From: Acidovorax sp. KKS102
Lineage (GTDB): Bacteria; Pseudomonadota; Gammaproteobacteria; Burkholderiales; Burkholderiaceae_C
Assembly: GCF_000302535.1 (NCBI RefSeq)
Contig: NC_018708.1
Span: forward strand, 558,001 to 622,000
DNA: 64,000 bases
Direction of reading: 5' to 3'
Each line of letters starts with the position of its first letter. The stretch's first letter is position 1. Below are positions 5,345-48,739 of this stretch, one piece after another. A program made the translations under genes and the position numbers. The notes beneath the pieces are model-generated. The model was not told the origin of the DNA and ran no database searches. It was given only the letters and a program-made list of their open reading frames with translations.

Positions 5345-6541
5345 TTACTCCTGCAGAGCGGCCTTGCCGATGATCAGTTGCTGCACCTCGGTCGCGCCTT
5401 CGTAGATGCGCAGCGAGCGGATGTCGCGGTACAGCGACTCGACCTTGCTGCCCACTTCCACACCGCGCCCGCCGTGCAGCTGCAGCGCCATGTCGATCAC
5501 GCGCTGGGCGTTTTCGGTGGCGGTCATCTTGGCCATGGCTGCTTCTGCGGTGACGCGCGCCTGGCCGGTGTCGCGCAGCCAGGCCGCGCGGTAGGTGAGC
5601 AGCGCGGCGCTGTCCACCAGTGCGGCCATCTCGCCGATCTTGGCTTGCGTGAGCTGAAAGTCGGCGAGCGTCTGGCCAAACATGCGGCGTTGGCGCGCGT
5701 GGTGCACGGCCTCGGCCAGCGCGCGGCGCGCCATGCCCAGCGCAGCGGCGGCGACCGACGCGCGGAAGATGTCCAGCGTGCGCATGGCCAGCTTGAAGCC
5801 GCCGTTTTCTTCGCCCAGCAGCGCCGCGGCAGGCACGTTGCAGTTGGTGAATTGCAGCGTCGCCAGCGGGTGAGGCGCCATCACATGGATGTGGCGCGAG
5901 GCATCCAGCCCTGGCGCGTTCGCATCGACGATGAAGGCGCTGATGCCGCGCGTGCCGCCTCTCGGGTTGGTCTTGGCGAACACGCAGTAGAAGTCGGCGA
6001 TACCGCCGTTGCTGATCCAGGTTTTGGTCCCATTCAAGCAAAAAGTGCCTGTAGCGCTAGTGGAATCTGTGCTGGAAGCTATGGTTTGCATAGCGCCTAC
6101 ATCGGAGCCCGCCTCGGGCTCGCTGAGCGCAAACGCCGCAATCAGCTCGCCACGCGCCACACCTTGCAGGTAGTGCGCCTGCTGCGCAGGGCTGCCCGCC
6201 AGCGTGATCGCACCGCTGCCCAGCCCCTGCATCGCAAACGCAAAGTCCGCCAGCGGCGAGTGGTAGGCCAGGGTCTCGCGCAGCAGCACCAGCGCGCGCG
6301 AGTCCAGTGCGGGCAGCGCGCCGCCGTGCGCTGAGGGCACGCAGTAGCGCAGCCAGCCGCCCGCGCCCAGTCGTTTCACCCAGTCGCGGCAAGCGGCGCG
6401 GTCATCGGTTTCATCGACCTCTTGCGCGGCCGCCCAGGGCACCAGGCCCTCGGCCAGCGTGCGGTGGGCGTCGTCGAAGAAGGGCAGGGCCAGGTGCGCC
6501 GTGGAGGGCGGGCAAGGGGCGGGGGGCGTGGCGATGTGCAT
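5345..6541 (-). CDS. Acyl-CoA dehydrogenase
   Basis: 398 residues with the standard order: helical N-domain, [16 protein letters not shown] flavin-binding segment, [22 protein letters not shown], and the C-terminal [12 protein letters not shown] and [15 protein letters not shown]. An FAD enzyme for alpha,beta-oxidation of acyl-CoAs, here probably acting on the ring-reduced or ring-opened thioester of the cluster. Between GAMQ and LNGTKTW the family usually has a short loop; here a 51-bp dispersed repeat (6032-6082) has been inserted in frame and encodes a Ser/Thr-rich stretch including STSATG. The enzyme appears otherwise intact. No strong Shine-Dalgarno precedes the ATG at 6541. Confidence 0.9.
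6032..6082 (-). repeat. Dispersed AGCGCT palindromic repeat inside the acyl-CoA dehydrogenase gene
   Basis: On the minus strand this 51-bp core runs from ATAGCT to TTGAAT. It aligns with the copy inside the kinase gene at 42875-42925 at 42 of 51 positions by hand count, and with intergenic copies near 14.7, 16.3, 26.7, 41.0, 47.0 and 48.6 kb. It encodes [17 protein letters not shown] within the dehydrogenase. The other coding copy is in the same orientation and frame. Confidence 0.8.
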
Positions 6542-14656: not shown

Positions 14657-15034
14657 GGGTGCTCCTGTAAATGACGGGCCATGATAGCGAGGGGCATTTC
14701 CGCCAACATTGCGGATAGTACGTAGCACACAGGCCGCATGGTTTTTAAGCCAAATAGCCCGGTAGCGCTTGTATTTATTGCCATGAATGCTACTCAATAG
14801 ATAGCAAATGTTAGGGTAAACACTGCGGTGCCCCCGTGTGCGAAATGGCCTTGTTTTGCGCTGTCGCAAGGCCGGATGCCCTGTCTGATCGATTGATGTG
14901 CACACACATCTTTTGCGTGCCGTACGCGCACTGCCCGTGCGCTCAGGCCTGCGCAGCGAGATTTTCAACAGGCGCCCAAGTCGCCTGCCAGTGCGCGCAT
15001 GCGCACATTCAGGCGGGCGTAACTGCTGAAAGAG
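14657..15034. other. Intergenic region, 378 bp
   Basis: It holds the Bug gene promoter region at its left and a degenerate copy of the AGCGCT repeat at 14741-14807. The rest, 14810-15034, has no reading frame with convincing codon use and no clear hairpin plus T-run. Confidence 0.5.
14741..14807 (-). repeat. Dispersed AGCGCT repeat, intergenic copy
   Basis: Contains AAGCCAAATAGCCCGGTAGC followed by GCTTG, then GAATGCTACTCAATAGATAGC, matching the order of blocks in the copies at 26.7 and 42.9 kb. It is more degraded than those and its central palindrome is poor. Confidence 0.6.
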
Positions 15035-16282: not shown

Positions 16283-16309
16283 GCCTGGGTTTCCTTGTGA
16301 GGTGGTGGT

Positions 16310-16367
16310 TTTGAATGAAATCGGCCTCTAGCGCTTATCCATAAAGCGCAAGCGGCTATGAAATTAA
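16310..16367 (-). repeat. Dispersed AGCGCT repeat, intergenic copy
   Basis: TTTTGAATGAAATCGGCCTC, then TAGCGCTTATCCATAAAGCG and CAAGCGGCTATGAAATTA. The TAGCGCTTAT-CC-ATAAAGCGC part is a near palindrome. It lies just upstream of the PaaK-type ligase gene. Confidence 0.75.
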
Positions 16368-16438
16368 GAGTGAATTCGTCAGAGGTCAGAAAAAGAACAC
16401 TGCACTGGCAGCCCGCGCTGCCGAAGGCCAGCGCCACC

Positions 16439-16510
16439 GCGCAAGGGCCGCCCCGCCGCGCTGGTGGCGTCCCCCTCGGGGGAAGGCGCCGAAGGCGACA
16501 CAGGGGGGCT
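16439..16510. repeat. GC-rich hairpin repeat, copy 1
   Basis: Starts with a 26-bp block that recurs exactly at 17447-17472 (from GCGCAAGGGCC to CGCGCTGG). It then has CCCCCTCGGGGG and GGCGCCGAAGGCGAC, both strongly self-complementary. It ends directly at the livF stop codon. Confidence 0.65.
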
Positions 16511-16511
16511 T

Positions 16512-17324
16512 TCAAGCAAGCCAGCGCTTGCGCCGCTTGTAGCTCTTTACGTCCTTGAAACTCTTGCGCTCGCCGCCGCCCACGCCCAGGTAGAACTCCT
16601 TGACGTCCTCGTTGTTGGCCAGGTCGCTGGCAGCGCCGTCCATCACCACGCGGCCACTTTCCATGATGTAGCCGTAGTCCGAATACTTCAGCGCCATGTT
16701 GGTGTTCTGCTCGGCCAGCAGGAAGGTGACCTTCTCCTTGGTGTTCAGGTCCTTCACGATGTTGAACACCTCCTCCACGATCTGCGGTGCCAAGCCCATG
16801 GAGGGCTCGTCCAGCAACACCATGCTGGGGTTGGCCATGAGTGCGCGGCCGATGGCGCACATCTGCTGCTCGCCGCCCGAGGTGTAGGCCGCCTGCGAGG
16901 TGCGGCGCGTCTTGAGGCGTGGAAAGTAGTTGTAGACCTTCTCCAGGTTGGCCGCGATCTCGGCCTTGCTGGTGCGGGTGTAGCTGCCCGTCATCAGGTT
17001 CTCTTCAATGGTCAGGTGGGCAAAGCAGTGACGTCCCTCCATCACCTGCACCACACCGCGCTGCACCAGGTCGGCGGGCGAGAGGTTCTCGATGCGCTCG
17101 CCACGCAGCTCGATGCTGCCCTTGGTCACCTCGCCCCGCTCACCCTGCAGCAGGTTGGAGATGGCGCGCAAGGTCGTCGTCTTGCCCGCCCCGTTGCCCC
17201 CCAGGATGGCCACGATGGAGCCTTCGCGCACCTGCAGCGAGACGCCCTTGAGCACCAGGATCACGTGGTTGTAGATGACTTCGATGCCGTTGACGTTGAG
17301 AACGATGTTGCTGTTGGAGTCCAT
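16512..17324 (-). CDS. livF: Branched-chain amino-acid-type ABC transporter ATPase (LivF)
   Basis: 270 residues with Walker A GGNGAGKTTTL, a TSGGEQQMCAIGRAL signature (SGGEQQ in place of LSGGQ), Walker B SMVLLDEPSMGLAP and an H-loop position occupied by Q in LLAEQNTN, as in LivF proteins. It has a basic C-terminal tail with KSYKRRKRW. AGGAAGG precedes the ATG at 17324. Partner of LivG in a HAAT-type importer; in this operon of CoA ligases the cargo is more likely an organic acid than leucine. Confidence 0.92.
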   Translation of the reverse strand: MDSNSNIVLNVNGIEVIYNHVILVLKGVSLQVREGSIVAILGGNGAGKTTTLRAISNLLQGERGEVTKGSIELRGERIENLSPADLVQRGVVQVMEGRHCFAHLTIEENLMTGSYTRTSKAEIAANLEKVYNYFPRLKTRRTSQAAYTSGGEQQMCAIGRALMANPSMVLLDEPSMGLAPQIVEEVFNIVKDLNTKEKVTFLLAEQNTNMALKYSDYGYIMESGRVVMDGAASDLANNEDVKEFYLGVGGGERKSFKDVKSYKRRKRWLA

Positions 17325-17446
17325 GGTCTTGCCTTCCTGTACCAATCCAAAAGGCTGTGGGTCAACCCTTTGGATTGGCGGCTGCCAAAAAAAGCAACCG
17401 CTGTTCACTGGCCGTAAAAACTGTCGCGGCCTTAGCGAGGAACGCC

Positions 17447-17541
17447 GCGCAAGGGCCGCCCCGCCGCGCTGGCGTTGTCCCCCTTCCCGCAGCGCGAAGC
17501 GCTAAGAGAGAAGGGGGAAGCGGCAAAGCCGCTCAGGGGGA
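17447..17541. repeat. GC-rich hairpin repeat, copy 2
   Basis: Shares its first 26 bases with the copy at 16439. The rest has CCCCCTTC and GAAGGGGG arms around a second small hairpin (AGCGC-GAA-GCGCT), then GCGGC-AAA-GCCGC. It fills the livK-livF spacer and could slow transcription or protect the mRNA end. Confidence 0.65.
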
Positions 17542-26686: not shown

Positions 26687-26690
26687 CAGC

Positions 26691-26757
26691 AATTTGGGTG
26701 AAATCGGCCGGTAGCGCTAGTGCAATATGCGCTGATAGCTATCTGATTTATAGCAAT
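26691..26757 (-). repeat. Dispersed AGCGCT repeat, intergenic copy
   Basis: AATTTGGGTGAAATCGGCC, GGTAGCGCTAGTGCAATATG and CGCTGATAGCTATCTGATTT. On the minus strand it matches the coding copy at 42875-42925 closely. It starts 4 bases after the gspB stop codon and could double as a 3' hairpin. Confidence 0.8.
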
Positions 26758-40972: not shown

Positions 40973-40980
40973 GTTGGGTA

Positions 40981-41038
40981 CTTTTTGAGTAAAAACGAGC
41001 GCAAGCGCTAGTGCCATAAGCGCTGGCTGCTATCAAAA
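40981..41038 (-). repeat. Dispersed AGCGCT repeat, intergenic copy
   Basis: AACGAGCGCAAGCGCTAGTG followed by CCATAAGCGCTGGCTGCTAT. It starts 8 bases past the htpG stop and lies directly before the terminator hairpin. Confidence 0.7.
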
Positions 41039-41039
41039 T

Positions 41040-41080
41040 AAGAAACCCCGGTGGTGCCTGGCGCCATCGGGGTTTCTTTA
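41040..41080. terminator. Bidirectional terminator between htpG and the 41158 gene
   Basis: Stem AAGAAACCCCG/CGGGGTTTCTT with an inner GGTG/CGCC-rich loop. T-rich sequence follows on both strands, so it can serve htpG (plus) and the small gene ending at 41158 (minus). Confidence 0.82.
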
Positions 41081-42451: not shown

Positions 42452-43501
42452 TCAGGCCACCAGCGGCTCTTCCTGCATGGCCTCGATCTGCTCGATCAGC
42501 ATGTCCACCTGCCCGCGCCAGTAGTCGCTGCTGCCAAACCACGGGAAGTTGGCGGGGAAGATCGGGTCCTGCCATCGGCGCGCGAGCCAGGCGCTGTAGT
42601 GGATGAGGCGCAAGGTGCGCAGCGGCTCGATGAGCGCCAGCTCGCGGCGGTCGAAGCTGCGGAACTGTTCGTAGCCGTCGATCAACGCACCGAGCTGGTG
42701 GGTGCGCTGGCGCCGGTCGCCCGACAGCAGCATCCACAAATCCTGCACGGCCGGGCCCATGCGCGCGTCGTCCAGGTCCACAAAGTGCGGGCCACCGCGG
42801 CCCCATTCATCCAGCGGGGTCCAGAGGATGTTGCCGGGGTGGCAGTCGCCGTGCAGGCGGATCTGGGTGGCATCATTCAAGCCAAATTGGCCTGTGGCGC
42901 TGGTGGAATATGCGCTGGTAGCTATTAAATCGAGAGCTTTGTCGCACTGGGTCTTCCAGGCGGCTTGCATGTCGAGCGGGATGATCTCGTTCATCAGCAG
43001 CCAGTCGCGCGATGCCGTGCCAAAGGTGGCCTGGTCCAGCGTGGGCCGGTGTGCAAAGGGCTGGGCGGCGCCCACGGTGTGGATGCGGGCCAGAAAGCGG
43101 CCGATCCATTCCAGCACCTCAAAGTCGTCCAGCTCGGGCTGGCGCCCGCCACGCCATGGGCTGACGGAGAACGCAAAGCCATCGTGCTGGTGCAGGGTGG
43201 TGCCGTTCAGCACCAGCGGGCCCACGGCGGGCACCTCGGCCGCCATCAGCTCGGCGGCAAAGGCGTGTTCTTCGAGGATCTGCGCTTCGCTCCAGCGGCC
43301 GGGGCGGTAGAACTTGGCCACCACGCGCTCGCCGTCTTCCAGCGTGACCTGGTACACCCGGTTTTCGTACGACGACAGTGCCATGAGGCGGCCGTCGCCA
43401 TACAGGCCCACGCTGGCCAGCGCGTCCAGCACCTGGTCGGGGGTGAGGCGGGCGTAGGGGTGCTGGTCGGCGGGCGGATGGTCTGGGTGCGGTACGGTCA
43501 T
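42452..43501 (-). CDS. srkA: SrkA/RdoA-type stress-response serine/threonine kinase
   Basis: 349 residues of the YihE/SrkA family (aminoglycoside phosphotransferase-like fold). It has SYENRVYQVTLEDGERVVAK for ATP binding, RLHGDCHPGNIL for the catalytic loop and FVDLDDARMGP for the metal-binding loop. SrkA counters stress-linked cell death in E. coli. Just before RLHGDC the protein contains IATSAYSTSATGQFGLN, encoded by the dispersed repeat at 42875-42925. Catalytic residues are intact, so it is probably active. Confidence 0.92.
   Translation of the reverse strand: MTVPHPDHPPADQHPYARLTPDQVLDALASVGLYGDGRLMALSSYENRVYQVTLEDGERVVAKFYRPGRWSEAQILEEHAFAAELMAAEVPAVGPLVLNGTTLHQHDGFAFSVSPWRGGRQPELDDFEVLEWIGRFLARIHTVGAAQPFAHRPTLDQATFGTASRDWLLMNEIIPLDMQAAWKTQCDKALDLIATSAYSTSATGQFGLNDATQIRLHGDCHPGNILWTPLDEWGRGGPHFVDLDDARMGPAVQDLWMLLSGDRRQRTHQLGALIDGYEQFRSFDRRELALIEPLRTLRLIHYSAWLARRWQDPIFPANFPWFGSSDYWRGQVDMLIEQIEAMQEEPLVA
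42875..42925 (-). repeat. Dispersed AGCGCT repeat inside the srkA gene
   Basis: On the minus strand the core runs from ATAGCT to TTGAAT, 51 bp, in frame. It encodes IATSAYSTSATGQFGLN; 12 of 17 residues are identical to the peptide from the copy at 6032-6082. Located directly before the catalytic loop-coding region. Confidence 0.82.
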
Positions 43502-47035: not shown

Positions 47036-47100
47036 GGTTTCAAAGCAAAAATAGCTGCGAGCGCTTGTGGATCAAGCGCTCGCAGCTATGGTTTTGGTAG
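47036..47100 (-). repeat. Dispersed AGCGCT repeat acting as likely terminator of the ohr operon
   Basis: Perfect 17-bp arms ATAGCTGCGAGCGCTTG/CAAGCGCTCGCAGCTAT around a 5-base loop (47051-47089). On the minus strand the hairpin is followed by TTTTTG. It sits directly after the DUF1304 stop codon, so this copy has the form of an intrinsic terminator. Confidence 0.8.
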
Positions 47101-47101
47101 C

Positions 47102-47488
47102 TCAGAGGCTGCGCTGTGTGGTGGCTGGTTTGTCCAGCGCCAGCACCAGGCCCAGCGCAATGATCGCGGGCAGTGCCTGGCTGAAGAAGATCTTGGGCGC
47201 TGCGGTGGCGGCGCCAAACACCCCGGCCACGATCACGCAGGCCAGAAAGAAGATCTTGAACACCCGGTTGCCGGTGAACAACCCAAAGAACAGGCCCGCT
47301 GCCAGAAAACCGTTGTACAGCCCCTGGTTGGCCGCCAGCGTGGTGGTGGCGTCGGCGAACTCCTGGGTCAGGTTGAAGGTCTTCATGCCCTGTGGCTTGT
47401 TCCAGAAGAACATTTCGAGCACGAGGATGTACACATGCTCGATGGCCACCAGGGCCACCGCGATGCGGGGAAGCAGCTGGCGGCCCAT
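47102..47488 (-). CDS. DUF1304 membrane protein
   Basis: 128 residues with four hydrophobic helices. Family features: [40 protein letters not shown] and [20 protein letters not shown]. Inner-membrane protein of unknown function. ATG 47488 is preferred to GTG 47491. It starts 3 bases after the ohr stop, so it belongs to the peroxide-stress operon; DUF1304 genes next to organic-peroxide genes suggest a linked role, which is inference. Confidence 0.85.
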
Positions 47489-48630: not shown

Positions 48631-48699
48631 AAATGCTATCAATAGCAGAGCTGCTGGCGCATGAATCATCTGCGCTAGCGGTCGATTTGGCTTGAAATT
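48631..48699 (+). repeat. Dispersed AGCGCT repeat, intergenic copy in opposite orientation
   Basis: AATGCTATCAATAGCAGAGC, GCGCATGAATCATCTGCGCT and GGTCGATTTGGCTTGAAATT. The order of blocks is that of the minus-strand copies, so this one is inverted relative to them. A GC hairpin GGGGGC/GCCCCC (48601-48617) is next to it. Confidence 0.7.
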
Positions 48700-48739
48700 T
48701 GACGCATGGCGGTTCGGGCGACGACGAACCACCAGGCCC

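Follow-up and report, generated by a model that had tools for sequence, protein, structure and literature searches.

Dispersed palindromic repeats are usually regarded as parasites or spacers. The repeat treated here, a unit of about 68 bp present in a 64,000-nucleotide stretch of Acidovorax sp. KKS102 (the window), resembles several described systems in some respects and departs from each of them in others. The ERIC or RU-1 units of enterobacteria are likewise dispersed imperfect palindromes, mostly intergenic and in some cases in frame in annotated genes, and have been interpreted as mobile, MITE-like sequences (PMC2759123); their sequence and hosts, however, are different, and in our repeat the copies are fixed across species, form dialects and conserve rare codons within genes. 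Rickettsia palindromic elements (discussed in PMC3733652) also are palindromic repeats standing in frame in many unrelated genes, whereas our repeat lengthens its host proteins by 5-11 residues for an element of 22 residues, is mostly intergenic at 3' ends, and consists of old, fixed copies under constraint at the DNA level. An earlier note on the window had drawn this comparison; it holds as far as a dispersed palindrome lying in frame in unrelated genes is concerned, but not for active spread, the copies being vertically inherited and fixed in place.

The GTAG and CGTC REPs with their RAYT are palindromic, reach high copy numbers and are occasionally intragenic (PMC3733652), and a RAYT-like gene is present here as well; our repeat, in contrast, is about twice as long and occurs as single dispersed units, none of which lies beside the RAYT-like gene, and the REP survey (PMC3733652) does not cover Comamonadaceae. 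BRE (Hot et al. 2011, PMC3110155) are dispersed in Bordetella and Comamonadaceae, some wholly within coding sequences, but measure 75-91 bp at about 69% GC, stand in tandem and number 1-29 per genome, in comparison to 68 bp, 43-45% GC, single units and hundreds per genome here; the two are set apart by the published description of BRE, not by their letters (PMC3110155). Neisseriaceae uptake sequences combine a genome-wide motif with lineage dialects and with altered residues in coding copies (PMC3630211), but they are 10-12 bp long, have a known receptor and lack a comparable 3'-end bias. In the literature, where BRE, ERIC, REP and VeiPR1 were the leads considered, no description of our repeat's sequence or family was found, in line with the earlier note, which knew of none, and an Rfam search with the repeat gave no match. 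Nor have we met a description that unites fixed positions with lineage dialects extending into proteins and with disappearance of the family alongside erasure of its copies in genes.

The repeat family and its copies in the window

Eight copies lie in the window, two in genes and six between genes. Together with the two host genes they are:

5345-6541, minus strand: acyl-CoA dehydrogenase gene, 398 aa (Pfam Acyl-CoA_dh_N, _M, _1; relatives 5jsc/5idu)
6029-6096, plus strand: repeat copy in the acyl-CoA dehydrogenase gene (nhmmer E=3e-11; earlier-noted core 6032-6082)
14742-14772, plus strand: intergenic copy, partial or decayed (nhmmer E=6e-4, model 3-33)
16306-16373, plus strand: intergenic copy, with a minus-strand gene to its left whose 5' end is 26 nt off (nhmmer E=3e-15)
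26689-26756, plus strand: intergenic copy, flanking genes convergent (nhmmer E=1e-15)
40980-41047, plus strand: intergenic copy, flanking genes convergent, stop codon 10 nt before (nhmmer E=8e-12)
42452-43501, minus strand: srkA/yihE-like kinase gene, 349 aa (Pfam APH; 1zyl YihE E=3e-94)
42872-42939, plus strand: repeat copy in srkA (nhmmer E=5e-16; earlier-noted core 42875-42925)
47036-47103, plus strand: intergenic copy forming a perfect long hairpin and adjoining a stop codon (nhmmer E=1e-13; -44.5 kcal/mol)
48633-48700, minus strand: intergenic copy (nhmmer E=2e-12)

The earlier note had described a 51-bp core in the dehydrogenase gene and in srkA and had counted 42 of 51 identical bases between the two, a count which we confirm; the encoded peptides also are as quoted there (12/17 identical), and both cores share orientation and frame within minus-strand, Pfam-supported genes. 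At least six further copies between genes had been claimed, and six were recovered, at about 14742, 16308, 26691, 40982, 47038 and 48634 (the last on the minus strand). The 51-bp core is real, but it is part of a full unit of about 68 bp: copies from our genome and from Comamonadaceae contigs (Acidovorax, Simplicispira, Comamonas, Giesbergeria, Diaphorobacter, Extensimonas and others) align gap-free over 68 columns, with conservation dropping sharply on both sides. The unit runs from an A-tract through a GC-rich inverted repeat (AGCGC...GCGCT), AGCTAT and a second A-tract to TAGC. Separately from the repeat family, the window holds a 40-bp GC-rich direct repeat of 93% identity (16437-16476 and 17445-17484), the two copies of which lie about 1 kb apart with a gene (16512-17324) between them.

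An nhmmer profile trained on 53 copies, with distinct copies counted at E<0.01, gave, in 464 kb of our genome, 93 raw matches at E<10 and 56 distinct copies, whereas a control of dinucleotide-model shuffles and reversed sequence gave 4 matches, the best no better than E=3. Three congeners contain 49-57 copies in 400 kb each, the sampled regions being syntenic and the congeners thus not independent. The density of about 12-14 copies per 100 kb corresponds to roughly 600 per genome, and a covariance-model search of the whole genome scored at least 150 places, all at E<1e-8. The repeat has a GC content of 43-45% against 64% in our genome sample, and copies within one genome are about 55% alike. 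In the GTDB family, matches at E<=0.01 occur in 60 of 151 genomes, in many of them by the dozen, while about 195 genomes of the order outside the family yielded just two single weak matches; the repeat family is largely confined to Comamonadaceae. Searches of plasmids and phages used the consensus and are too insensitive for comparing densities.

The positions of these scored matches are compatible with a uniform spread and show no clear strand rule, on which ground a replication-strand or macrodomain signal was rejected. One stretch of 60 kb (G000:C1:654723-714630) is free of repeats, compared with a mean spacing of 8 kb; it has few called genes, and one ORF in it is about 1700 aa long.

Placement, age and persistence of the copies

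According to a home-made gene caller, 47 of the 56 copies lie between genes or across a gene edge, and nine (about one in six) are in genes; these nine cases were checked against Pfam. The median distance from copy to stop codon is 18 nt. Divergent genes flank 37 of the 211 longer intergenic regions, but none of the 47 intergenic or edge copies (p=1e-4); divergent regions make up 20% of the intergenic length, and the depletion is apparent by length too (p=4e-5) and recurs in the congeners. Such a position just past stop codons and away from divergent regions is what would be expected of an element acting in RNA, as a terminator, a hairpin stabilising mRNA or a processing site where transcripts end, and some copies do fold strongly. 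However, orientation relative to transcription is unbiased (24/23; tandem genes 14/18), no consistent U-tract is found, and stem covariation does not exceed that of shuffles, RNAalifold recovering just the invariant GCGC core; moreover, an RNA element would be harmful or useless in coding sequence, yet the repeat is conserved there. We therefore hold an RNA-level element to be quite improbable for the family as a whole, while some copies may have a 3'-end function at the RNA level.

The nine host genes, all Pfam-supported, encode acyl-CoA dehydrogenase, SrkA, a sensor kinase, a biotin carboxylase subunit, a DUF3025 protein, DapF, an RNA methyltransferase-like protein, GspD and CobS. In the biotin carboxylase subunit, the copy lies between the carboxylase C-terminal and biotinyl domains, in DapF between its two domains, in the RNA methyltransferase-like protein after the PUA domain and in GspD in the N-terminal signal region. 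The two sites in the window are variable loops, as the earlier note had supposed; the solved relative 5jsc lacks 5 residues at the dehydrogenase insert and 1zyl about 10 at the srkA insert. Exposure of these loops is judged from alignment to the solved relatives, the dehydrogenase as modelled by AlphaFold from its single sequence having a pLDDT of 38. Insertion in frame into unrelated genes, also proposed in the earlier note, stands, but the net gain of protein, 5-11 aa in the dehydrogenase and 7-10 aa in srkA, is far below the 22 aa of the element, which at its ends extends into codons that the ancestral protein already had. The orientation and frame shared by the two copies are explained by the few frames available: in a six-frame translation of the consensus and the copies few frames are commonly open, and the in-gene copies use mainly two; other in-gene copies are read in a frame different from that of these two.

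The copies are old. That in the dehydrogenase is present in 17 checked congeners, every close one included, while G151 has lost the DNA signature and G153 the insert; that in srkA is present in nearly all congeners and in about 18 other genera. Neither was found in orthologues from other families of the order. The earlier note had named two findings that would speak against its reading, the same peptide in orthologues across distant families and the lack of a genome-wide excess of the core; what we find is an element restricted as described and a large excess, of 56 copies in 464 kb against none in shuffled or reversed DNA. As a further observation, srkA of G162, G161, G158 and G168 (L206, L212, L215, L220) keeps both A-tract ends (TTGATAGC, GGCCATTTTTC) and has lost the central inverted repeat.

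At sites with both flanks mapped, the element is kept in 34 of 38 cases in G166, 21 of 24 in G159 and 33 of 37 in G163, on the same strand except in one case (in G163 every time). Orthologous copies are 70-87% alike, compared with about 55% within a genome, and the locus-specific ends of copies persist. From this persistence in place and the higher similarity of orthologues it follows that the family is passed on vertically and hardly moves at the time scale of congeners.

This bears on the reading as a mobile element of the REP or MITE type, moved by a transposase in trans (for example, a single-copy RAYT-like Y1 transposase), whose in-gene copies would be tolerated insertions. The repeat is indeed dispersed, palindromic and placed at 3' ends, and a PF01797 gene is found in 17 of 17 congeners tested and is usual in element-rich family members. 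But element-poor G151 and G153 have the gene too, as do many element-free genomes, and the copy nearest to our RAYT-like gene is 13.5 kb away; neither target duplications nor stable ends were seen, and the very few absences in the 400-kb samples of three congeners, mostly decayed copies or unclear replacements, include no clean empty site. We regard mobility of this kind as improbable; the RAYT-like gene may have been involved in the origin of the family, but its presence is insufficient to keep it. The gene itself (PF01797, single copy; G000:C1:960272-960976, positions 402271-402975 of our sample) lies upstream of a gltB-like gene and is followed downstream by a short GCTATCATTTTGATA hairpin similar to the repeat's right end.

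Constraint on the DNA, dialects and genome-wide loss

A point absent from the earlier note is that the DNA of the repeat is conserved within genes independently of the protein. Between our genome and G163, columns 28, 50, 51 and 52 are identical in 35 of 35 orthologous pairs and several others nearly so, with the conservation of consensus columns somewhat inflated by a profile trained on the family itself; the adjacent 20-nt intergenic flanks of orthologous copies are 43-55% identical. ATA accounts for 0.7% of Ile codons in the genome, but stands at the insert in all 15 dehydrogenases with Ile there and in 16 of 19 scored orthologues of the kinase, and the codon following it is mostly GCT (6.9% of Ala codons). 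In all nine in-gene copies, codon adaptation is about 0.2 within the insert and about 0.7 (0.6-0.8) outside. A sequence so old should have ameliorated if the peptide alone were under selection; rare codons kept across species therefore argue for a constraint acting on the DNA, against codon usage.

The letters thus held differ between lineages. The species consensuses of our genome and of G166 favour A31/T40, those of G159 and G163 T31/A40; at column 26, G162 shows C in place of the G of the others, as do G161, G172 and G164 on weaker evidence from few copies, the statistics beyond the first four genomes resting on 6-16 copies per species. Orthologous pairs of our genome and G159 differ in the direction of the dialect in 29 of 29 cases (mean 15.3 bits, p=5e-5, leave-locus-out), and this includes the copies in genes (8/8); with G163 the count is 28 of 35, and with the close relative G166 orthologous copies show no dialect difference. 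Column 40 changes from T to A in 15 pairs and in the reverse direction in 1. The dialect reaches into the protein: at the dehydrogenase insert our genome encodes STDSTSA, G163 SAYPSSA and the C26 lineage SGGSG. Inversion of the loop was considered as driver of the changes and rejected, as 2 of 29 pairs with G159 look inverted and none in the other comparisons.

Within the genome, columns 31 and 40 vary together, for which an exchange of whole cores could be the cause, and after correction for the family consensus the retention of core columns between orthologues does not exceed that of neutral flanks, which leaves room for some conversion between copies. Both the 31/40 haplotypes and this modest retention would suit a functionless gene conversion among dispersed copies that keeps them alike and makes the dialects. 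Sequences of 68 bp that are about 55% alike are, however, too short and too diverged for usual homologous exchange, locus-specific ends survive, and the genome-wide erasure in two congeners would be left without explanation; as the sole cause, conversion seems to us very improbable indeed.

The erasure concerns the complete genomes of the congeners G151 and G153, with 3 and 4 genome-wide matches in comparison to at least 148-150 in the other complete congeners tested. In G151 the longer loop of the dehydrogenase persists, encoded by DNA that has turned GC-rich (ATAGCT has become ATGGCC), and of the srkA copy a remnant is left; G153 has lost both inserts. Joint erasure in the genome and in genes is what the loss of a common reader would predict, an argument drawn from two genomes, of which one carries 5% contamination. 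Furthermore, the family is entirely missing from G303, while at least 131 copies were counted in its congener G129.

A putative reader of the repeat

For copy number, location, age, constraint on the DNA, dialects and the loss in two congeners, we consider the most probable explanation to be a double-stranded DNA site that is kept by a co-evolving, putative sequence-specific trans-acting factor. The strongest couplings between columns are those of neighbours in the A-tracts, with AAA and TTT swapping as blocks, which would speak for a role of DNA shape; taken with the absence of covariation and the random orientation, it points to recognition of double-stranded DNA. Under this explanation, an ancient site of about 68 bp would be held in place by selection or drive at the DNA level, exerted by the factor, mostly just past stop codons and away from divergent promoter regions, and in a minority of cases in frame in genes, at turns or linkers tolerating extra residues. 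With a drifting preference of the factor, all copies of a lineage, those in coding sequence included, would drift to the dialect of that lineage; with its loss, copies would decay genome-wide and those in genes would gain normal codon usage or be deleted. That the reader is a protein we infer, and so its task: the preference for 3' ends suggests chromosome organisation or transcription boundaries, and nucleoid organisation or a 3'-end transcription boundary would be likeliest, with biased DNA uptake as a possible alternative.

Uptake deserves separate mention as it would, on our analysis, yield much of the same pattern and is a serious rival, even if we judge it unlikely. A competence receptor would prefer DNA with the element, and transformation would homogenise copies in place and make dialects, much as the uptake sequences of Neisseriaceae have species dialects also in coding sequence with changed residues (PMC3630211); evolution in place, the dialects and the disappearance of the entire family from some congeners all fit, and the net insertions are short. 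Uptake sequences, though, are 10-12 bp long and number near 2000 per genome, compared with 68 bp and about 600 copies here, and our repeat strongly favours 3' ends over coding DNA. Returning to a factor that reads the site, the fullest form of our proposal, that a site of about 68 bp co-evolves with it across Comamonadaceae, forcing rare codons and dialect-matched residues on proteins, and that sites vanish where the factor is lost, has in our estimation about an even chance of being right.

The repeat also touches annotation. A class 1 integron DUF1010 cassette between dfrA12 and aadA2 contains a repeat copy within its ORF (NZ_MZ513635.1 54251-54541; L357:1411-1701), and near-identical DUF1010 cassettes are found in 1810 plasmid records. 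The cassette, which we take to be gcuF/orfF, may on account of this copy have originated in Comamonadaceae, and the repeat family could, as the cassette suggests, serve as a practical marker of Comamonadaceae DNA. Positions 1 to about 23 of Pfam DUF1010 (PF06231) resemble the translated repeat, and most of the best six-frame DUF1010 matches in our genome fall on repeat copies (for example, G000:C1:1738842-1738907, 2455639-2455716 and 4062951-4063079); the repeat would account for part of this Pfam family.

Ageing copies whose DNA letters, even within enzymes, withstand the pull of codon usage and change jointly from species to species make the question of a reader testable. If our reading is true, the sequence of a protein would here be set by a DNA signal.
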